Source of the DNA: Synechococcus sp. UW140
Lineage (GTDB): Bacteria > Cyanobacteriota > Cyanobacteriia > PCC-6307 > Cyanobiaceae
DNA: 64,000 nt
Assembly: GCA_945875915.1 (NCBI GenBank)
Contig: CAMCMT010000002.1
Span: 1-64,000, forward strand
Direction of reading: 5' to 3'
Below the pieces are notes generated by a model that did not search any database, had not been told where the DNA came from, and saw only the letters and a program-made list of their open reading frames with translations. Positions 12,263 through 28,253 of this stretch are shown piece by piece. A program made the translations under genes and the position numbers. The first letter of the stretch is position 1. Each line of letters starts with the position of its first letter.

Positions 12263-13558
12263 CTAACGATAGTCCTGGGTTTGGATGTCAGAGAGGCGCG
12301 CCTCTGGCCGCAGAAATCGATCCATCTGGGCTTCGAAGAAGCTTCGGTTGGCCTGGAGGTGCTCCGCTTTGGTGTCATCGAGGGGATAGAGCAGGGCACA
12401 GCGCAGGGCCTGGATCACGGCCGAGGTCACGTTGTACATCGAACGCTGGAAGGTGATCCCCAGCTGAATGAGCTGGTCTTGCTCGCCGCGGCGATGCTCT
12501 TTGTAGAGCTCCTGCAGATAGGGGGGTAAGAAATGCAGCATGTCCTGCATCATCAGGGTGGGTGGAATCCCCGCCGAACCCACGGGAAACACATCCGCAT
12601 AGAGGATGCCGTAGTGGAAATCAGCCTGCTCGGCTGGCACTTGGTCTGCCTGGGCGTTATAGCTTTTGGTGCCCCGAAAGGGTGAGGTGCGATAGAACAC
12701 CGCCTCCACGTAGGGAAGGGCGGCCTCGTAGAGCCAGGTGAAGCCCTCGCTTTTGGGAATGATCTCGATGCACTCCCCTGCGATGAACACTTGGTGGTAG
12801 ATCGGCCGGCCCGCCACGGCAAAAATGCCATTGACCAAAAAGTCCATAGCCGCTGGCACGCTGGCGAGCTGGCCCTCGTCGTAGAGGTCGCTCATTTCAA
12901 AAAATACCGGTGCCATCACCTCCCAAAATAGGCCCAGATTGGCGCTGTAGGAGAGCTGGCGTACCTTCTCGATAAACATCTCCGGAAAGAGCTTGTAAAG
13001 CCCCAGCATCACCAGGTTGCCTTTGAAGTAGGCCCTGATCGCCCGATCGGCGTTGGCCCGGTAGGCCTCGCTGGCGAGGTAGTCGTTGAAGCGGCCCCCC
13101 AGGCCCTGGTGCCAGAACATGGCCTGCATGCAGGCCTCGGCGAACTCCATGTTCACCCGGTCGTGCCAGAGGTGGTGCAGCAGCTTCGGCATGGCGCGGG
13201 TTTCGCCCTTGGCCATGAACTCCAGCAGCTCCGGATGGGCCTTCTCGCCCCCACGCCAGATCCGCAGGGATGCCTGATCGCCCGCATAGCGATTGGGAAG
13301 ATCGAGATACTCCTGGGAGATGAAGTACTTGAAGGCCGGCAGCGGGTTGAGAAACACGCGTTCGGCAATGTAGAGCAAATCACGCCAATAGAAATCCATT
13401 GGCACGGCATAGGCCTTGTAGATGCCGATGATTTGCTTGAGATTCTCTGGCGTGTCCGGCAGCATCGAACCACCGGCCTCCAGCCGATGGATCACATCGG
13501 CGTAGGCATGGCTGGAGGGGCCTAGGACGGAGGCGCCCTCGGGGGAGGAGCGGGTCAT
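12263..13558 (-). CDS. chpX: CO2 hydration protein ChpX/CupB of the NDH-1 CO2-uptake complex
   Basis: This 431-residue protein belongs to the cyanobacteria-specific ChpX/ChpY (CupB/CupA) family, recognisable by segments such as YKAYAVPMDFYWRDLLYIAE and HDRVNMEFAEACMQAMFWH. Histidines and cysteines in these blocks fit the zinc-dependent, carbonic-anhydrase-like vectorial conversion of CO2 to bicarbonate on the thylakoid NDH-1 complex. Its start overlaps the ndhD stop as ATGA. I favour ChpX (CupB, constitutive NDH-1_4) over ChpY because alpha-cyanobacteria typically keep only the ndhF4/ndhD4/chpX set; this choice is inference. Confidence 0.88.
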   Translation of the reverse strand: MTRSSPEGASVLGPSSHAYADVIHRLEAGGSMLPDTPENLKQIIGIYKAYAVPMDFYWRDLLYIAERVFLNPLPAFKYFISQEYLDLPNRYAGDQASLRIWRGGEKAHPELLEFMAKGETRAMPKLLHHLWHDRVNMEFAEACMQAMFWHQGLGGRFNDYLASEAYRANADRAIRAYFKGNLVMLGLYKLFPEMFIEKVRQLSYSANLGLFWEVMAPVFFEMSDLYDEGQLASVPAAMDFLVNGIFAVAGRPIYHQVFIAGECIEIIPKSEGFTWLYEAALPYVEAVFYRTSPFRGTKSYNAQADQVPAEQADFHYGILYADVFPVGSAGIPPTLMMQDMLHFLPPYLQELYKEHRRGEQDQLIQLGITFQRSMYNVTSAVIQALRCALLYPLDDTKAEHLQANRSFFEAQMDRFLRPEARLSDIQTQDYR

Positions 13559-15027
13559 GATGGCAACTGGCTTCGGAGGGCAAGGGCGGCGGTGCTGGCC
13601 TCGCTCCAGCCGGTGAGCCCGGCGGGCCAGATCCCCGTGAGCAGCACCAATACGGTGAGAAGAATCGCTGGCAGGCGTTCAGCGAGGCGGGTGGTCTGCC
13701 AGTCGGCGCGGGCGTTATCGAGGCGACCGAAGCCCACCCGGTTGAACAACCGAACCGCATAGACGGCCGTGAAACCGGAGGCCACCAGGCACACCAGCGT
13801 GGCGCGGGGGAACACGGTCCAGCTGCCCTCGAACACCAGCAGCTCGGCTGGAAAGCCTGCCAGGCCGGGGATACCTGCGGCGGCCATGAGGGCCAGAAGC
13901 AATAACCCCATGGTGAACGGCAGGCCGCGGATCGGGTTGAGGAGGCCGGAGAGCTCGGCGATAACCGTTGTGCCGGTTTTGCGTTGAATCAGACCAACGC
14001 AGGCGAACAGCAGGGCCACGATCAGGCCGTGGGCGATCACCTGGGCCACCGCACCCTGCAGGCTCAACGGCGTGGCAGCTGCCAGGGCTAGCACCAGCAG
14101 GCCCATGTGGCCGAGGGAGCTGTAGGCCATCAGCCGGCGCATGTCGGTGGCGGCGATGGCGTTGAGGGCGCCGTACACCGCACTCACCGCCCCGGCCGCA
14201 GCGATCCAGGGGGAAAAGATGACCCAGGCATCGGGCAGCATCCCCACTCCGAAGCGCAGCAGGCCATAGGCCCCCAGCTTGGACACCGCCCCACCCAGCA
14301 TCATCACGACTGGTGCCGGTGCCTCCGCATAGGTGAAGGGCTGCCAGCCGTGCAGGGGCACCAGCGGCAGCTTCAAGCCAAAGCCCAGCAGCAACAGGGC
14401 CAGAACCCAGGCCTGGCCACTGGGGGGCAAGGGGGCTGAGGCCAAGGCCTCGAAGCTGAAGCTCACCGCCGCATCGGCGCCGCCAGCCCCCTGACCAAAC
14501 CAGCCGAAGGCCAGCACGCCGCCTAGCAGGCTCAGGCCCGACACGGCGCCGTAGATCAGAAAACGCACGGCGGCGCCAGCCCTGCGGGCCCCACCCCAGA
14601 TGGCCACCAGCAGGGTGGTGGGGATCAGCACCAGCTCGAAGGCCAGCACAAACAGCAGGGCGTTGTGGGCCAGGAAAGCCCCCATGACCCCCAGGTTGGT
14701 GGCCAGCAGCAGGGGGTAGTAGAGCCGCGGCCGGCTCTGGTCAACCGGTGAGGCCAGCACCGCCATGGCGGTGAGTAAGGCCGTGAGTAGCACCATCGGC
14801 ATCGACAGCCCATCGAGGGCCAGATCCAGGCCCAGGCCCAGCTTCGGCAGCCAGGTGAGGCCGATGGCGATCGGCACCTGGCGCCAGGCCACCAGGCCTA
14901 TGGCGAGTTGGACCAGGGCAGCGGCGGCGGCCAGGGTGCGTACCAGGCCAGGACGCTCGGAGGGCACCAGGGTCAGCAGCAGGCCAGCCGCCAGCGGCAC
15001 CCCTAACAACAACAACAGCAAGGTCAT
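13555..15027 (-). CDS. ndhD4: NDH-1 subunit 4 (NdhD4), CO2-uptake type
   Basis: From the ATG at 15027 the protein is 490 residues with about 14 membrane segments and the proton-channel features of NuoM-like subunits (for example AFELVLIPTTLLVAIWG and KLPLVPLHGWQPFTYAEAP). It joins NdhF4 and ChpX in the thylakoid NDH-1 complex that hydrates CO2. The start MTLLLLLLGVPL matches the usual NdhD N-terminus. The frame, however, stays open through six upstream 15-bp repeats and contains an ATG at 15114 that overlaps the ndhF4 stop as TGATG, which would add 29 residues of a PSAV[IM] repeat. Its stop overlaps chpX as ATGA. Confidence 0.9.
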   Translation of the reverse strand: MTLLLLLLGVPLAAGLLLTLVPSERPGLVRTLAAAAALVQLAIGLVAWRQVPIAIGLTWLPKLGLGLDLALDGLSMPMVLLTALLTAMAVLASPVDQSRPRLYYPLLLATNLGVMGAFLAHNALLFVLAFELVLIPTTLLVAIWGGARRAGAAVRFLIYGAVSGLSLLGGVLAFGWFGQGAGGADAAVSFSFEALASAPLPPSGQAWVLALLLLGFGLKLPLVPLHGWQPFTYAEAPAPVVMMLGGAVSKLGAYGLLRFGVGMLPDAWVIFSPWIAAAGAVSAVYGALNAIAATDMRRLMAYSSLGHMGLLVLALAAATPLSLQGAVAQVIAHGLIVALLFACVGLIQRKTGTTVIAELSGLLNPIRGLPFTMGLLLLALMAAAGIPGLAGFPAELLVFEGSWTVFPRATLVCLVASGFTAVYAVRLFNRVGFGRLDNARADWQTTRLAERLPAILLTVLVLLTGIWPAGLTGWSEASTAALALRSQLPS

Positions 15028-15117
15028 GGCAGAAGAGATTGCGGCAGAGGAGATCACGGCTAGAGGGATCACTGCAGAAGGGATCACGGCAGAAGGCATC
15101 ACTGCAGAAGGCATCAC
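15028..15117. repeat. Six tandem copies of a 15-bp unit at the ndhF4/ndhD4 junction
   Basis: On the plus strand, six consecutive 15-bp units begin at 15028, 15043, 15058, 15073, 15088 and 15103; the units nearest ndhF4 read ggcagaaggcatcac or tgcagaaggcatcac, and a partial seventh lies inside the ndhF4 3' end. Divergence rises toward ndhD4. Since 15 is a multiple of three, the array is in frame with ndhD and reads as a five-residue repeat (VMPSA or VIPSA) on the minus strand; it contains the ndhF4 stop codon. Confidence 0.92.
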
Positions 15118-17020
15118 GGCAGAACCGAAGCAAGGGGGCCTGGGATGCCAGCGATTAACAAGGCCGCCATCAACAGCACGCCCAATACGAGGGTGAGGGC
15201 GTAGGCCTGGGAGCGGCCGGAGGTGGTGAGGCTCAGCCGGCGGGCTCCAGCGAGGGCGGCCGCTCCGGTGCCGCCGCTGAAGCCATCCACCAGCCTGCTT
15301 TCGCTCCAGGCGCCGAAGCGGGCCAGGGTCAACACCAGGGCCACCACGGTGCGGTGGTAGAAGCGCTCGGTTTGCATGTCGTGGGCCAGCCATGCCTGAA
15401 TGCCGCCCAGGGCCTCAGGCAACCGGGCCAGGCCATGGGGCCTTAGGTAGAACACCGCCGAGAAACCGCCACCGAGCAGGGTGGAGGCCAGCAGGGGCCA
15501 GCCCAGGGGTCCCCAGCCAGGGATCGGCGTGAAGGCGTACATGCCGTTGCGCACCAGCAGCTGGGGCAGGTGCAGCACCAGGCCCATCACCACGGTGGTC
15601 GGCACCACCATCAGCCACAACACCTCGGCGGAGCGCTGGGTGAACGGGGTGGGGCGCCCACCCCAAATTTGACCGAACACCCGGATCAAGCCGGCACTGA
15701 TCAGGGTGTTGGCCAGCAGCACCACCCCGCCCAGCAGCCAGGGATGGGCGCTGGCGGCGACCAGCACCAGCAGCTCCTGCAGGGCGGCGAAGCCGGCGAA
15801 GGGGGGAAGGCCGATCAGGCCGGCGGTGCCGGCCAGGAAGGCCAGGCCCATCAACGGCCGCCGGCTCCAAAGGCCGCCCAGCTGGGTGAGGTCCTGGGTG
15901 ACGTTGCTGATCACGATCGTGCCGATGGCCATCAACAGCAGGGCCATTGGCAGGGGATAGACCAGCAACAGGTGGTCGGCCACGGCCGTGCCCCCGAGGC
16001 CCACGGCCACGAACAGCAGTCCCAGCCAGCTACTCACCAGGAAACTCAACGCCCGCTTGACATCCACCTGGGCCAGGGCAATCAGGGAAGCCACCACTGC
16101 CGTGGAACCGCCCACCACCACCAGCACGCCCTGCACGAAGGGGCTGAGCTCGAGCAGGGGCTCCAGGCGCAGGAGTACCCAGGCCCCCCCACCACCACCA
16201 CCGCATTGCGCAGGATCGTCGAGGGCAGCGGGCTCTCCATGGCCTCATCCAGCCAGAGGTGCAGCGGGATCTGGGCGCACTTGCCCATCGGGCCCGCAAT
16301 CAGGGCCAGCAGGATCAGCTGGAAGCCCGCTGGCAGGGGCCGGCCGTTATTAATGATGTCGGCGGCCCAGCCCTGTAGGCCGTGGAAGTTCCAGGTGCCG
16401 GCCACAGGCAGCAGGGCAATCACCCCTGCTAGCAGGATCAGGTCACCGATGCGCTTGGTGAGAAAGGCGTCGCGGGCCCCCTTCACCACCAGGGGCTGGT
16501 TGTACCAGGTTCCCACAATCAAGTAGGTGCCCAGGGTGAGCAGCTCCAGGATCACGTAGCTGAAAAACACCGAATCGGTGAGCACCAGGGCACAGAGACC
16601 CGCCTCGAAAAAGCTGAGCGAACCGAAGAAGCGCGGCCAACCCCAGTCCATCTCCAGGTAGCCGATGGCATAGATCTGCACCAACAGGTGCAGGCCCGTG
16701 ATTAAGGCCATGGCGATCAGCGCCTGCTCGGTCACCAAGCCATCGAAGCCCACCCGCAGGCCGCCGGTATTCAGCCAGGTCCAGCCGAAACCCAGGGGGC
16801 GGTAGAGGGCTTCAGCTCCGGCCCGGGCGTTGGTGTGCAGGGCGATCAGGGCGATCAGGCTATGGCCGAAGGCCACAGCCACCATCAGCAGATTGATGTA
16901 GCCGGCGGGCCTGGGTCCCATGCGGGAGATCAGGCCAGGCGACCACAGCAGCGAGAGGAGGGCCGCCAGCAGGGGGTAGAGCGGCACCAACCAGGCCGTT
17001 TGCAGGACTGCAACGGTCAT
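15114..17020 (-). CDS. ndhF4: NDH-1 subunit 5 (NdhF4), CO2-uptake type, interrupted by a one-base frameshift
   Basis: Two overlapping minus-strand frames together make one NdhF: the N-terminal frame (17020 to about 16190) runs through PLHLWLDEAMESPLPSTILR and the C-terminal frame (about 16183 to 15114) resumes with WVLLRLEPLLEL and VGGSTAVVASLIALAQVDVK. The break sits exactly at a run of seven G on the coding strand (plus 16184-16190); one more G would give VVVVGGAWVLLRLEP and restore a full-length NuoL-like protein of about 635 residues. This is either a homopolymer sequencing error, a recent loss, or slippage. Partner genes ndhD4 and chpX are intact, which favours a functional gene. NdhF4 is the distal proton-pumping antiporter-like subunit of the CO2-uptake NDH-1. 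Confidence 0.88.
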
Positions 17021-22029: not shown

Positions 22030-23973
22030 TCAGGCCACCAGGCCCAGGGCCATGGCGGCATCTTGAACCAAGCTCCGCAGGTAGGGGTGGCTGGATTGGG
22101 GGTGATTCCCACTGTCTGCCAGGTTGAAGGCCTGGCCCGGACCTGCCGCAGGAGTGGCCCGCACTTCCTCACCGGAGCCATTTCGGATCATCAATCCATC
22201 CCCATGGCGCCGGCACCAGTACAGCCGTTGGCGTCGTTGCAGGCAGATCTCCTCGCCCCCGCTTGCCCTTAGGGCCACCACCTCGAGCTGCAGCCGTTCT
22301 TCCCCCTGCCAGCGGTTATTGCGCAGCCTGTAGGCCACATCCACCACGGCAGGTTGGTGCTTGGGGCCTTGCCAGCGCCAGGCCATCGCCCGGATGCGTC
22401 CCTGCCCCTGGGCCAGGGTTAGCTGCAGGTGGCCGCCCCGCAGTTCCCGTTGGTCCACTACCTCACAGGAGTGGCTCCAGAACAGGGGGGCCGGCATGGC
22501 GATCCCGAACGGCTCTAGGCGTTGCAGTTGTTGCCAGAAACTCCGATCGATTTGCTCGATTGGTAACAGGGCTTCCGGTTCAACAATGGTGCCTTCGCCC
22601 CGTTGCTCCAGCCAGGCCGCCGCCAGACCATTAAGGCGCCCATGCAGCTCGGCCACCCGTTCCGCCAAAACGGTGAACCCCCCAGCCGCCGGGTGTCCGC
22701 CGTAACGAATCAACAGATCGTGGCAGTGCTTGAGGGCCTGATCGGCGCCAAAGCCAGCCGGCGCCCGCACCGAGGCCCGTAGGCGCCCATCCCCCTCGGA
22801 GGCCAGCAGGGCCACGGGCCGGTTGAAGCGCTCCACCAGGCGGGACGCAACGATACCGATCACCCCATGGTGCCAGTGGGTCTGGGCTAACAGCAGGAAG
22901 GGGCTTTGCTGGTCCCCATCGGCCTCAACCAGGGCCACGGCCTCCGCCTCAATCGCCTCACACAATTCGCGCCGCTGGCGGTTGTAGCCCTCACAGGCCC
23001 GGGCCAGCTCCAGCGCCTCGTCCTGGTCGGCGGTGGTGAGCAGATCCACCACCAGTTGGGGATCCCCGAGGCGGCCCACCGCATTGATGCGTGGTGCGAG
23101 TTGGAAGCCGACACTGCCGGCGTCAATGGGGCTGTCATCGAGGCCGGCCACCTGTTGAAGGGCCTGCAGACCGGGTAAGGCGCTGCCCTTGAGCCCGGGC
23201 AGTCCATCCATTAACCAGCGCCTGTTCACCCCGACTAGGGGAGCCATGTCGGCAATGGTGCCAATACAAAAAAGATCACGGGCATTGGCCAGGGCCTGCT
23301 GATCGCCCAGGGCTAGGGCCAGGGCCTGTCCCAACACGTAGGCCAGACCCACGCCGGCCAAACCCCGGTAGGGGGAGCCCTCCGGCGTACAGGCCGGATG
23401 GAGCAGGGCCAAAAAAGGCGGCAGTTCGTCAGGCAGGCTGTGGTGGTCCGTGAGGATCACATCGAGGCCTAGGGCCTGGGCCCGCAGGAGGGCGTCCCGG
23501 GCGGCCACGCCGTTGTCCACCGTGACCAGGAGGCCAACCCCCTCGCCATGGAGCCGCTCCACCATGGCGACATTGAGTCCATAGCCATCCTCTTGACGGC
23601 TGGGGATGGCGGCTTGGGGCCTGGCCCCTAGGCGCTGCAATACCCCCACCAGCAGGGCCGTACTGGTCATGCCATCGGCGTCGTAGTCGCCGCAGATGGC
23701 CACGGCCTCAGCGGCCTTGCAGGCCTGGCGTAGGCGGACGACGGCCTTCGCCAGGTCGGCGAAATGGTCGCCTGGCTCGGGAGCTGGGGGGGGATCGAGA
23801 AGTCCCGCGATCGCCTCCGCCGTGTCAAAGCCCCGTCGTTGCAACACCGCCAGCAGGGGGGGGGGCAGTTCTGGCTGGGCCAGGGACCGGGGCTCGTGGA
23901 CTAGCGGCGCCGGCAACTGCCAACGGGGCTCGGTTGGCAATGGCGCCAAGGCGGGGATCCGGTAGGAGGTCAT
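22030..23973 (-). CDS. recJ: Single-stranded-DNA-specific exonuclease RecJ
   Basis: The 647-residue protein has the DHH phosphoesterase motifs in order: ICGDYDADGMTSTALL, VTVDNGVAA, LTDHHSLPDELPP, GLAGVGLAYVLGQAL, then the DHHA1 domain with RYGGHPAAGGFT. RecJ is the 5'-3' ssDNA exonuclease of the RecF recombination and mismatch repair pathways. Length is slightly above the E. coli enzyme and includes a C-terminal OB-like region. It is divergent from cbbY and followed at once by the CLC gene. Confidence 0.93.
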   Translation of the reverse strand: MTSYRIPALAPLPTEPRWQLPAPLVHEPRSLAQPELPPPLLAVLQRRGFDTAEAIAGLLDPPPAPEPGDHFADLAKAVVRLRQACKAAEAVAICGDYDADGMTSTALLVGVLQRLGARPQAAIPSRQEDGYGLNVAMVERLHGEGVGLLVTVDNGVAARDALLRAQALGLDVILTDHHSLPDELPPFLALLHPACTPEGSPYRGLAGVGLAYVLGQALALALGDQQALANARDLFCIGTIADMAPLVGVNRRWLMDGLPGLKGSALPGLQALQQVAGLDDSPIDAGSVGFQLAPRINAVGRLGDPQLVVDLLTTADQDEALELARACEGYNRQRRELCEAIEAEAVALVEADGDQQSPFLLLAQTHWHHGVIGIVASRLVERFNRPVALLASEGDGRLRASVRAPAGFGADQALKHCHDLLIRYGGHPAAGGFTVLAERVAELHGRLNGLAAAWLEQRGEGTIVEPEALLPIEQIDRSFWQQLQRLEPFGIAMPAPLFWSHSCEVVDQRELRGGHLQLTLAQGQGRIRAMAWRWQGPKHQPAVVDVAYRLRNNRWQGEERLQLEVVALRASGGEEICLQRRQRLYWCRRHGDGLMIRNGSGEEVRATPAAGPGQAFNLADSGNHPQSSHPYLRSLVQDAAMALGLVA

Positions 23974-24089
23974 TCTGCGCGGTGTCGTCCCGCCTGCCCA
24001 TGGGCAAGGCCGTTCCCTAGAGGGTTCTGCCTGCCCAAGTTGCTGCCGTTGGATCCGGTGGAGCCTGACTCCGGCTTTAGCCTGCCCCG

Positions 24090-24863
24090 ATGCCTGGATC
24101 CGGCTCCGATCGCGCGCCTGCTGCCCTGCTCTGGGATGTGGATGGCACCCTGGCGGAAACGGAGCTCCAGGGCCATCGCCTCGCCTTCAACCGGGCCTTC
24201 GCCGCAGCGGGGCTGTCCTGGGATTGGGACCTGGACACCTACCGGAGCCTGCTGGCGATCGGTGGCGGCCAGGAACGCATGCGCTATTACGCCATGGCAG
24301 TGGCGGGCGTGGAATGGCCGGCCGATCGCCTTGCTGCTTTGCAACGGTCCAAACAGGGCCACTACCGCCAGCTGGTGCAGGCCGGTGAGGTGCACTTGCG
24401 CCCCGGGGTGGGCCGCCTGATGGCGGCAGCTGCTGCTGCGGGTCTGGCGCAGGCGGTCGTCACTACCAGTGGCCGCGAGGCGGTGGAGGCCTTGCTGTTG
24501 CAGTTGCTGCCCGATTTGATGCCCCAGCTGGCCGTTCGGGTTTGCGGTGAGGATGTGGCGACTAAAAAACCCGATCCTGAGGGGTACCAAAGGGCCCTTG
24601 CGCTGCTTGGCCTGCCACCAGGGCAGGTTGTGGCGATCGAGGATTCGCCCCAGGGTCTGGCCGCTGCTACAGGGGCAGGAATCGCCACCCTGGTGACCAG
24701 GAGCCTGGCCACCGCTGAGCAGCCAATCGACGCTTTTGCTGGGGCCGGCGCCCTGGTCAGCCACCTGGGTGAACCCAATCAACCAGCCCAGGTTCTGCAT
24801 GGTCCCCCTTGCCCCGGCGGCCAGATCTCCCTTCGCTATCTCCACCAGCTGTTGCAGCCATGA
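24090..24863 (+). CDS. cbbY: HAD phosphatase CbbY-like (probable xylulose-1,5-bisphosphate phosphatase)
   Basis: The 257-residue HAD hydrolase has nucleophile D16 and general acid D18 in LLWDVDGTLAETE, a cap domain with GHRLAFNRAF, motif II threonine in VVTTSGR, and motif III/IV in KKPDPEGYQRAL and VVAIEDSPQGL. The D-x-D-GTLAETE-x-x-GH pattern followed by a CbbY-type cap is that of CbbY, which destroys xylulose-1,5-bisphosphate, an inhibitory Rubisco misfire product. Phosphoglycolate phosphatase is the main alternative. It heads a three-gene chain joined by ATGA overlaps to ycf20 and a glycerate kinase. Confidence 0.82.
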   Translation: MPGSGSDRAPAALLWDVDGTLAETELQGHRLAFNRAFAAAGLSWDWDLDTYRSLLAIGGGQERMRYYAMAVAGVEWPADRLAALQRSKQGHYRQLVQAGEVHLRPGVGRLMAAAAAAGLAQAVVTTSGREAVEALLLQLLPDLMPQLAVRVCGEDVATKKPDPEGYQRALALLGLPPGQVVAIEDSPQGLAAATGAGIATLVTRSLATAEQPIDAFAGAGALVSHLGEPNQPAQVLHGPPCPGGQISLRYLHQLLQP

Positions 24864-25204
24864 CCCCTCCCAAGCTGCAGAGCACCCGCTTTGAACTGCT
24901 GCTGGGCCAGCTGGTCCGGTCCCTGGTTGGCAACTGGCGTGGCAACTGGCGCCGACGCAGCCTGGGCTTGCTTGCTTTGTTAGTGGGTCTCTACGCCGGC
25001 AGCAACCTCACGGCCTATTACCTGCAAATGATTGGCCACCGGCCCGTGGTGGTGTTGATCTGGCTGCTGGTGATTGAGATCGTGGTCTGCCTGAGGAGTC
25101 GCCTGGTTGAAGAGGACCCCTCCCTGGCCTGGATCGTGGCCGACAACCTGCGCATCGGCCTGGTCTATGCGGTGGTGCTTGAGGCTTTCAAGCTGGGATC
25201 ATGA
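24860..25204 (+). CDS. ycf20: Ycf20/DUF565 membrane protein
   Basis: From the ATG at 24860, which overlaps the upstream stop as ATGA, this is a 114-residue protein with two to three hydrophobic helices (LGLLALLVGLYAGSNLTAYY, VVVLIWLLVIEIVVCL). It belongs to the DUF565/Ycf20 family found in cyanobacteria, red algal plastids and green plants, where the plant homologue affects photoprotective quenching. The biochemical function is unknown. The tight coupling to cbbY and glyK suggests expression with photosynthetic carbon metabolism. Confidence 0.85.
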   Translation: MTPPKLQSTRFELLLGQLVRSLVGNWRGNWRRRSLGLLALLVGLYAGSNLTAYYLQMIGHRPVVVLIWLLVIEIVVCLRSRLVEEDPSLAWIVADNLRIGLVYAVVLEAFKLGS

Positions 25205-26067
25205 GTTTTGAAGCTTCCCTGCTAACCAGGCTGGTCGCCCTAGTCCGCCAGGGGGAGTGCCCCGTGATCGGGCTGAATGGGCCCGTGGGCGCTGGCAAAT
25301 CGAGCCTGGCCCGGCGGCTGGCCCAGCAGGCTGCCGCCCAGGGCCTGAACCTGGCCGTGGCCTCGATTGATGACGCCTATCTGCCCTGGCATCCCCGCCT
25401 GCTGGCCATGGCGGGCAATCCCTTCAGCGTTGATCGGGTGCCCCCAGGCAGCCATGACCCCGGGCTACTCGTTGAGTCGATTGTGGGGTGGCGCCGTGGT
25501 CGCCAAGGGGGTACTTCCAGCCCCGGCCTGCTGCGTTTGCCCCGGTTCGATAAACGGCTGCGCCAGGGGGCCGGCGACCGATCCGGCTTCAGTCAGCACG
25601 TTGCCGATGGCCTGCTGCTGGAGGGCTGGCTGATCGGCTGCCGCCCCCTTGGGGTTAGCCAGATCCAGGCCACCAGTGGGTCAGGAGCAAGCTTGGTCGG
25701 ATCCCCTTGCCTGACTGCGGATGAGTGGGCTTGGCTACCCCGTTGGAACCAGGCCCTAGAGACCTACCAACCCCTTTGGCAACAGCTCAATGGGCTATGG
25801 GTGCTTTGGCCGATGGATTGGCGACTGCCCCGGCGCTGGCGCTTTCAGGCTGAGGCCAAACAACGGCGCCTTGGTGGCGGCTGGCTCAGTGGCACCAAGA
25901 TTGAACAGTTGGTGCGATCGAGTCTGTGCTCCCTGCCGCCCGAGCTGTATCTGAAGCCCCTGCTGACTGGGGCCAATCAGCTTCGGTTGCTTGATTGCCG
26001 CAGACGCAGCCTCTGGGAAGGGCCTGGACGGGACTTTGATCCCAGCGATGCCCTACTCATCCGTTGA
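25201..26067 (+). CDS. glyK: D-glycerate 3-kinase (GlyK/GLYK type)
   Basis: The 288-residue P-loop kinase has Walker A in IGLNGPVGAGKSSLARRL at about residue 23, a Walker B-like ASIDDAYLPW, and the motifs GSHDPGLL and RFDKRLRQGAGDR of the plant-type glycerate kinase, which phosphorylates D-glycerate to 3-phosphoglycerate as the last step of photorespiration. The ATG overlaps the ycf20 stop as ATGA. A kinase of uridine type is less likely because of the GSHDP and FDKRLRQGAGDR motifs. It converges on rpmF across a CTGGGG/CCCCAG hairpin. Confidence 0.85.
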   Translation: MSFEASLLTRLVALVRQGECPVIGLNGPVGAGKSSLARRLAQQAAAQGLNLAVASIDDAYLPWHPRLLAMAGNPFSVDRVPPGSHDPGLLVESIVGWRRGRQGGTSSPGLLRLPRFDKRLRQGAGDRSGFSQHVADGLLLEGWLIGCRPLGVSQIQATSGSGASLVGSPCLTADEWAWLPRWNQALETYQPLWQQLNGLWVLWPMDWRLPRRWRFQAEAKQRRLGGGWLSGTKIEQLVRSSLCSLPPELYLKPLLTGANQLRLLDCRRRSLWEGPGRDFDPSDALLIR

Positions 26068-26099
26068 AGCAAGCAAAGCCAAGCTCCGCCCTGGATTTT

Positions 26100-26118
26100 C
26101 TGGGGACTTAGCCCCCAG
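26100..26118. terminator. Hairpin between convergent glyK and rpmF
   Basis: CTGGGG (26100-26105) and CCCCAG (26113-26118) form a six-base-pair stem with a seven-base loop between the two stop codons. It lacks a U-tract on both strands. Confidence 0.4.
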
Positions 26119-26140
26119 CAGGCCCAAATCTCAACAGGGC

Positions 26141-26317
26141 TCAGCCCTCGGTTTCTTCCTCTTCAGCGATCGGGTAAACGAAGCCTTGGGCCCGGCCGCT
26201 CAGCACGGCCTTGCCGATCGAGAGGGCCTTTTGGGCCGCTACCCGGGCCTTGCCCTTCCAGGTGGCGTGGCGCTGATTGCGCTTGCCTTTCGATGTTTTC
26301 TTCTTGGGAACAGCCAT
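26141..26317 (-). CDS. rpmF: 50S ribosomal protein L32
   Basis: The 58-residue protein begins [20 protein letters not shown], the standard start of bacterial L32; the ATG at 26317 is therefore chosen over an upstream frame. The basic N-terminal half binds 23S rRNA. The C-terminus ends in an acidic tail (EEEETEG). The zinc cysteines of C+ L32 forms are absent. It is divergent from ftsH, with 85 bp between the starts. Confidence 0.95.
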
Positions 26318-26402
26318 CCCTTTCGCGCAACCAAACAACCATCTTCCGCTGCCGCCTTGCCTTTCGTCAAATCGCTAAGCTCCTTTCTATTGACTGGGTC
26401 TT

Positions 26403-28253
26403 GTGACCAGCAGCACTCCACAACCAGCAGCCCAGCCCCTAAGGCCGCCAGCGCAGCGACCCGCCGAAGCCCCCTCCCTCCTGCGGGATCTGGGCTTGGC
26501 CAAGTCGCCACCGCCGAGCTACAGCAAGCTGTTGCAACAGGTGCGCACGGGCCAGGTCAAGGACCTCGAGCTGTCCCTAGTGCGCCGGGAAGTCACCGTC
26601 ACCTATCCGGCCGGCGCCAAGGTTCAGGTCCCAGTTTTCAATAACGACCAGGAGCTGTTGCGCACGGCCCAGCAGGCCCGTGTCCCCTTATCAGTCCGCG
26701 ATGACCGCCGCGATGAGGCCACCGCCGGTTTGATCGGCAATATTTTGTTAGTGGTGTTGCTGTTTGGCGGCCTCACCCTGCTGATTCGTCGCTCCACCCA
26801 GGTGGCCAATCGGGCCATGGGTTTTGGCCGCAGCCAGGCCCGTATCCAGCCCGAAGGCAGCATCGATGTGCGCTTCGAAGATGTGGCTGGCATTGCCGAA
26901 GCCAAGCAGGAACTCGAAGAGGTGGTCACCTTCCTACGCCAGCCCGAACGCTTCACCACCATCGGCGCCAAGATCCCTAAAGGGGTGTTGTTGGTGGGCC
27001 CTCCTGGCACGGGTAAAACCCTTTTGGCAAAAGCGATCGCCGGCGAAGCTGGGGTTCCCTTCTTTTCGATCGCCGCGTCTGAATTTGTTGAGATGTTTGT
27101 GGGAGTGGGGGCATCGCGCGTGCGCGATTTATTCCGACGCGCCAAGGAAAAGGCACCCTGCATCATCTTCATTGATGAGATCGATGCGGTTGGTCGCCAG
27201 CGGGGTGCAGGAATTGGCGGCGGCAATGATGAGCGCGAGCAAACCCTCAACCAATTGCTTACCGAGATGGATGGCTTTCAGGACAATTCTGGAGTGATCC
27301 TGCTGGCCGCCACCAATAGGCCCGATGTGCTCGACACGGCCCTGATGCGGCCCGGTCGTTTTGATCGCCGCATTGTTGTTGACTTACCTGATCGTCGTGG
27401 GCGCGAACAGATCCTGGCGGTGCACGCCCGCAGCCGCCCCCTGGATCCTGAGGTGTCCCTAAACGATTGGGCCAGCCGCACCCCTGGATTTTCCGGTGCC
27501 GACCTCTCTAATTTACTTAATGAGGCGGCGATCCTCACGGCCCGACGGGATCGCCAGACCATTGACGACCAGGCCCTTAACGATGCTCTTGAACGCATCA
27601 CCATGGGTCTGGGGGTGGCGCCCCTACAGGACAGTGCCAAGAAGCGCCTGATTGCCTATCACGAAATTGGCCACGCCCTGCTCACCACCCTCTTGCCCCA
27701 AGCCGATCAGCTCGACAAGGTCACCCTCCTGCCCAGGGCAGGCGGCGTCGGCGGCTTTGCCCGCACCATGCCCGATGAGGACATGCTTGATTCAGGCTTG
27801 ATTAGTAAGGCCTACCTGCGCGCCCGCCTGGTGGTAGCCATGGGCGGCCGGGCGGCAGAAGTGGTGGTGTTTGGTCCCAGTGAAGTGACCCAGGGCGCCA
27901 GTGGTGACCTGGAGATGGTTAGCCGCATCTGCCGTGAAATGGTGACCCGTTATGGCTTTTCAAGCCTGGGTCCGGTGGCCCTAGAAGCGGATGGTGGTGA
28001 GGTGTTCCTTGGGCGAGATTGGTTGCGTTCTGATCCCCACTATTCCCGCGAGACTGGTAATCGTATTGATGTGTTGGTGCGTAACCTTGCCCGGGAATCC
28101 CTCCAGGAAGCCATCAATCTGCTGTCGCTGCGGCGTATCCTGATCGACGAGTTGGTCGACCTGTTGATTGAGCAGGAAACCCTGGGCGGCGAAGAGTTCC
28201 GCGCGGTTGTTAGTCGCTATGAAAGTGTCTGCGAACCTGTTGCCGCAATTTGA
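26403..28253 (+). CDS. ftsH: ATP-dependent zinc metalloprotease FtsH, lacking the N-terminal membrane segment
   Basis: The 616-residue protein has an AAA module (Walker A GPPGTGKT at residues 199-206, Walker [10 protein letters not shown], second region of homology RPGRFDR) and the protease motif HEIGH at 420-424, so it degrades membrane proteins in the thylakoid or plasma membrane. It starts with GTG at 26403; an in-frame stop at 26391 rules out an upstream extension. The N-terminus is proline- and alanine-rich and soluble; the only clear membrane helix is at about residues 109-129, whereas ordinary FtsH has a first helix before the periplasmic domain. It is probably one of the FtsH1-4 paralogues; I cannot say which. 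Confidence 0.92.

Follow-up and report, generated by a model that had tools for sequence, protein, structure and literature searches.

A conserved ycf20–glycerate kinase gene pair in cyanobacteria and its extension by a CbbY-like phosphatase gene in Cyanobiaceae

Introduction

The gene families that meet at the locus described here are already known. Among the CbbY proteins of the HAD phosphatases, RsCbbY and AtCbbYA are two verified XuBP phosphatases, and the plant-type D-glycerate 3-kinases (GLYK) are represented by the solved structures 6ckg and 7xpc. The third family, Ycf20 (DUF565), is encoded in many algal plastid genomes, and we know of no biochemical role for it. In plants, reduced NPQ is reported for Arabidopsis with a mutated YCF20 gene (PMC12791165, citing Jung and Niyogi 2010). 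A full-text search of the open literature for ycf20 together with glycerate kinase, whose coverage left out most subscription journals, returned no paper, and we found no description of four features reported below, namely the pairing of ycf20 with glyK across the phylum, the second ycf20 present throughout Cyanobiaceae, a divergent phosphatase clade and the gene losses in genus g178. Here, we compare these systems with a locus in Synechococcus sp. UW140, contained in a contig stretch of 64,000 nucleotides (the “window”).

Genomic context and conservation

The locus consists of a CbbY-like phosphatase gene, ycf20 and glyK on one strand, bordered by genes that serve as locus markers (Table 1). 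As a sequence-only reading of the window had noted, each gene overlaps the next by a four-nucleotide ATGA, and we regard the three as an operon-like, probably translationally coupled unit whose co-transcription we infer. No sigma-70-like promoter was found at 23800–26500, and the number of terminator-like sites was not above chance. The true start of the neighbouring rpmF is probably an internal ATG. About 9 kb from the operon, the window also carries an NDH-1 CO2-uptake pair (12266–15393, minus strand), made up of a ChpXY-type CO2 hydration protein (PF10216, 9e-155) and a proton-antiporter-type NDH subunit (PF00361); a 318-aa ORF adjoining these CO2-uptake genes (15570–16523, plus strand) had no Pfam match at 1e-6.

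Table 1 Features of the locus, with window coordinates.
Feature	Position	Strand	Evidence and remarks
recJ, divergent upstream neighbour, locus marker	22030–23973	−	TIGR00644 2e-128; kept beside other Cyanobiaceae loci
CbbY-like HAD phosphatase gene, 257 aa	24090–24863	+	PF00702/PF13419; best PDB matches RsCbbY and AtCbbY; outside CbbY clade in tree
ATGA overlap phosphatase/ycf20, 4 nt	24860–24863	+	sequence; −4 spacing seen again in many Cyanobiaceae loci
ycf20 copy 2 (DUF565), 114 aa	24860–25204	+	PF04483; clade c2; ATG at 24860, TGA ends at 25204
ATGA overlap ycf20/glyK, 4 nt	25201–25204	+	sequence; −4 spacing seen again in other genera
glyK, plant-type D-glycerate 3-kinase, 288 aa	25201–26067	+	phmmer alignments to 6ckg and 7xpc; ATG at 25201
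rpmF (L32), convergent downstream neighbour, locus marker	26141–26338	−	PF01783; kept at other Cyanobiaceae loci
ftsH, downstream locus marker, after rpmF	26403–28253	+	TIGR01241

DUF565 was searched for in 386 genomes of the phylum, with the window's family taken as Cyanobiaceae on the basis of named relatives; those with the window-type ycf20 (copy 2, ycf20-2) include Cyanobium, Vulcanococcus, Synechococcus lacustris, marine Synechococcus and Prochlorococcus. DUF565 was detected in 183 genomes of the window's class, and the genomes outside that class yielded one marginal match (E 3.8e-4) and otherwise none. Three members of the class, from two genera (G177, G332 and G229), have neither DUF565 nor GLYK and carry a CbbY gene. 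In genus g4, two ycf20-2 matches each contain one TAA inside the matched stretch (G137:C1:354107-354430 and G366:C1:367501-367833) and may be shortened or decaying copies.

Outside Cyanobiaceae, ycf20 is followed by an adjacent, same-strand glyK in 66 of the 92 genomes in which both genes were located, spanning 14 families, with a gap that, measured from the nearest plausible start codon, mostly ranges from a few bases to some tens; the two genes lie apart in the remaining 26, and several families are wholly unlinked. Inside Cyanobiaceae, all 32 genomes checked have the phosphatase gene directly upstream of ycf20-2, and 20 of them have glyK directly downstream, the other 12 being 11 small-genome members (1.6–1.9 Mb, Prochlorococcus-like), which have glyK elsewhere and ycf20-2 still with the phosphatase, and one further genome. 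Metagenome-assembled genomes that lacked both the phosphatase and ycf20-2 most likely have assembly gaps there, and were left out as evidence. The gene order, which the sequence-only reading had proposed to check in other cyanobacteria, is therefore conserved and not specific to this strain. Beyond Cyanobiaceae, a CbbY gene was near ycf20 in 0 of the 40 genomes in which it was located (the nearest at 24 kb), and a family with large genomes (f7, probably Nostocaceae) has the ycf20-glyK pair and no CbbY at E<=1e-20 in any member. Since the pair is widespread and the phosphatase joined it only in Cyanobiaceae, the three-gene operon is an older two-gene unit that picocyanobacteria have extended.

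The four-nucleotide overlaps in other Cyanobiaceae genera, together with the phylum-wide adjacency, show that the arrangement is not due to chance. It might still be mostly historical, an old pair held together by inheritance and compact-genome packing whose products are functionally untied, and the relocation of glyK in the Prochlorococcus-like lineages, where ycf20-2 stays with the phosphatase, would fit such a history, as would the wholly unlinked families. So would part of genus g9, in which the glyK of the locus is gone, a distant type is encoded elsewhere, and the phosphatase and ycf20-2 have remained: in three members (G181, G469 and G451; L090, L107 and L108) glyK groups with G221-type sequences and lies away from ycf20, and in G330 of the same genus it is in place, an apparent gene displacement. 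However, cyanobacterial gene order changes readily, and survival at short spacing in 14 non-Cyanobiaceae families is hard to obtain by inheritance alone, and we consider a mostly historical arrangement unlikely.

Glycerate kinase and phosphatase

The product of glyK aligned in phmmer searches with the solved D-glycerate 3-kinases 6ckg (3.4e-19) and 7xpc (GLYK, 1.1e-12), with a P-loop (GPVGAGKS) and DD, GSHD and DKxxxxGxGDR motifs in register with both; no Pfam family scored above its cut-off. The protein differs from plant-type GLYK in being short and in belonging to a long-branched Cyanobiaceae group. Its identity as a plant-type glycerate kinase, by homology, is well supported and agrees with the original assignment of the third gene. 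GLYK was found in all 58 Cyanobiaceae with two DUF565 copies and in most other genomes. Functionally, it would act at the end of photorespiration, feeding glycerate back into the Calvin cycle.

For the phosphatase, which the sequence-only reading had taken for a CbbY-like enzyme removing XuBP, the first part of the assignment stands: the protein matched PDB entries 4uar (1.8e-39) and 4uav (9e-38), against 9e-10 for the next-best different PDB protein. The catalytic residues of the DxD, T, K and ED motifs are present (D16, D18, T126, K160, E184 and D185). Like RsCbbY and AtCbbYA, it combines the HAD core motifs with a cap-domain G-G-x-E-R loop; unlike them, it belongs to a separate clade and adjoins ycf20 instead of lying in a cbb operon. 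The second part is less secure, because the operon proteins fall outside the clade that holds the two verified XuBP phosphatases and have lost residues that are otherwise invariant. Evolutionarily, in a tree of 70 sequences a branch of 0.78 (99/100) separated them from RsCbbY, AtCbbYA and 20 further CbbYs of cyanobacteria, a position that, with the distant outgroup used for rooting, fits a sister group and a fast-evolving member of the clade equally. Of the 42 columns that hardly vary among the CbbYs, 27 are retained by 90% or more of the operon phosphatases. Among the residues lost is RsK52, the cap-loop Lys in G-G-K-E-R, which is K in 7% and R in about half of them (Q in the window protein); RsH75 and RsY198, kept in 24% and 11%, respectively, and others have been lost as well. 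This cap loop is presumably the substrate-specificity loop, as in the beta-phosphoglucomutase family, so that the substrate preference may have changed.

The enzyme could accordingly prefer a substrate other than XuBP, in which case the unit would not be a Rubisco misfire-repair operon, whichever role is given to Ycf20. The separating branch and the loss of RsK52, RsH75 and RsY198 are consistent with this possibility, but RsH20, the His of the cap, is retained along with the HAD catalytic residues, and each operon-bearing genome has only this one CbbY-like gene at E<=1e-20. Moreover, AtCbbYB, in which just 7 of the 13 signature residues remain, is nevertheless selective for XuBP (PMC10212915). 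Some signature loss is thus tolerated, XuBP is still the leading substrate candidate, and we hold a non-XuBP enzyme to be somewhat unlikely. The name XuBP phosphatase is plausible for the operon protein by sequence comparison, and the enzyme probably clears an inhibitory sugar phosphate produced by Rubisco.

Diversity and predicted structure of Ycf20

The window Ycf20 belongs to PF04483 (DUF565; E 3.8e-8, 34.0 bits against a cut-off of 27). Two DUF565 copies were present in 58 of 58 sampled Cyanobiaceae and a single one in each of the 125 other genomes of the class. A tree of 109 sequences resolved three well-supported groups, corresponding to copy 1, copy 2 (the window's) and the canonical single protein of other cyanobacteria; built without an outgroup, it groups the proteins and leaves aside the order in which they split. 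The window protein shares with canonical Ycf20 the conserved helical core and a C-terminal EAFKLGS, and differs from it in belonging to the Cyanobiaceae-only copy 2 clade and in lacking the NPWRR motif of copy 1 and the canonical proteins. As to which copy is the counterpart of canonical ycf20, the adjacent glyK and the FKLGS at the C-terminus point to copy 2, and the NPWRR motif to copy 1. In the window genome, the neighbours of copy 1 (L063) were not found at other copy-1 loci, for which reason a fructose-bisphosphate-aldolase-like gene seen by eye beside it was dropped as a guide to the meaning of its surroundings.

An AlphaFold2 model built from 52 sequences (pLDDT 79.5, pTM 0.59) has four helices (residues 10–27, 30–58, 61–82 and 89–113), a shorter N-terminal one followed by three of membrane-spanning length, and Ycf20 is accordingly predicted to be a small three-helix membrane protein. 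Foldseek returned no match at E < 1 for this model. In a second fold comparison, PsaL (photosystem I chain L, subunit XI) ranked first, with Z up to 8.9 and an rmsd of 3.9 over 85 residues, a similarity too weak to be trusted for helical bundles, which reach such a Z by chance; an hhalign alignment of Ycf20 with PsaL (PF02605) had a probability of at most 0.1, which did not exceed that for reversed PsaL, and kinship with PsaL was rejected. With no trusted match, we claim no fold. The suggestion that Ycf20 is a transporter thus found no family or fold support in Pfam, Foldseek or the fold comparison.

Functional implications

In three species of genus g178 (G421, G445 and G464; L083–L085), ycf20-2 sits between recJ and rpmF with both the phosphatase gene and glyK missing, and whole-genome searches of the three found no GLYK and only distant HAD proteins. 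An unrelated GlxK kinase occurs in two of these genomes, a MOFRL-type kinase, considered as a replacement for GLYK, is absent from the genus, and in G445, whose assembly is one contig, none of the three glycerate kinase types searched for was recognised. Because the related genus g181 (L041 and L042) has all three genes, the state in g178 represents loss, and with ycf20 in the middle, the two lost genes must have gone in at least two deletions that left it intact. The joint loss is a hint that the phosphatase and GLYK are linked with each other. Further afield, GLYK went undetected in at least 18 other genomes that carry ycf20. Retention of Ycf20 after loss of the enzymes shows that it has a role independent of either.

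These observations weaken the proposal of the sequence-only reading that Ycf20 shares a process with both enzymes, for example by transporting photorespiratory or Rubisco side-product metabolites across the membrane or by regulating them. The deep and repeated ycf20-glyK adjacency, the strict adjacency of phosphatase and ycf20-2 in Cyanobiaceae, and the absence of GLYK from the three sampled class members without DUF565 are all in line with such a tie. A tie to both enzymes was nevertheless not borne out, since Ycf20 is kept without both (g178), without detected GLYK, without the phosphatase (as in family f7) or with glyK elsewhere, and the small size of the protein (114 aa), its three helices of membrane length and the lack of a match to any transporter family also speak against it; we view this proposal as distinctly unlikely.

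Instead, we posit, with evenly balanced confidence, that the three genes form a co-expression unit of photosynthesis-support genes in which Ycf20 acts in the membrane, and not as a dedicated transporter or regulator for both enzymes. Since Ycf20 persists in genomes that lack one of the enzymes or both, it is probably co-expressed with them without acting on their metabolites. In this unit, ycf20-glyK is the old core; Cyanobiaceae have a duplicated ycf20, with a CbbY-like phosphatase gene before the glyK-linked copy. Ycf20 would most likely act on photoprotection in the photosynthetic membrane, and the unit would be shared since all three products are needed under the same conditions, which we infer to be high light and low CO2. 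Against this reading, adjacency conserved over such distances often reflects a closer functional tie than shared conditions, and in 26 of the 92 non-Cyanobiaceae genomes where ycf20 and glyK were both placed, the two are unlinked.

A photoprotective role would fit the reduced NPQ reported for the Arabidopsis YCF20 mutant. The Arabidopsis double CbbY mutant, however, is also altered in Y(NPQ) (PMC10212915), so that the NPQ phenotype of the YCF20 mutant may be indirect, through disturbed carbon metabolism, and the idea of a metabolic Ycf20 survives at lower probability. In one such version, the plant-type glycerate kinase of cyanobacteria would have in Ycf20 a membrane partner of its own, which either anchors it or lets glycerate or glycolate pass at the photosynthetic membrane; after duplication in picocyanobacteria, one copy would have been kept in a photorespiratory unit that was joined by a phosphatase of altered specificity, and the plant NPQ phenotype would stem from disturbed carbon recycling. 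We consider this version very improbable.

Nearly all of the photosynthetic cyanobacteria sampled have Ycf20, and the pair with glyK, the second picocyanobacterial copy and a genus that has Ycf20 without the enzymes provide testable handles on its function.
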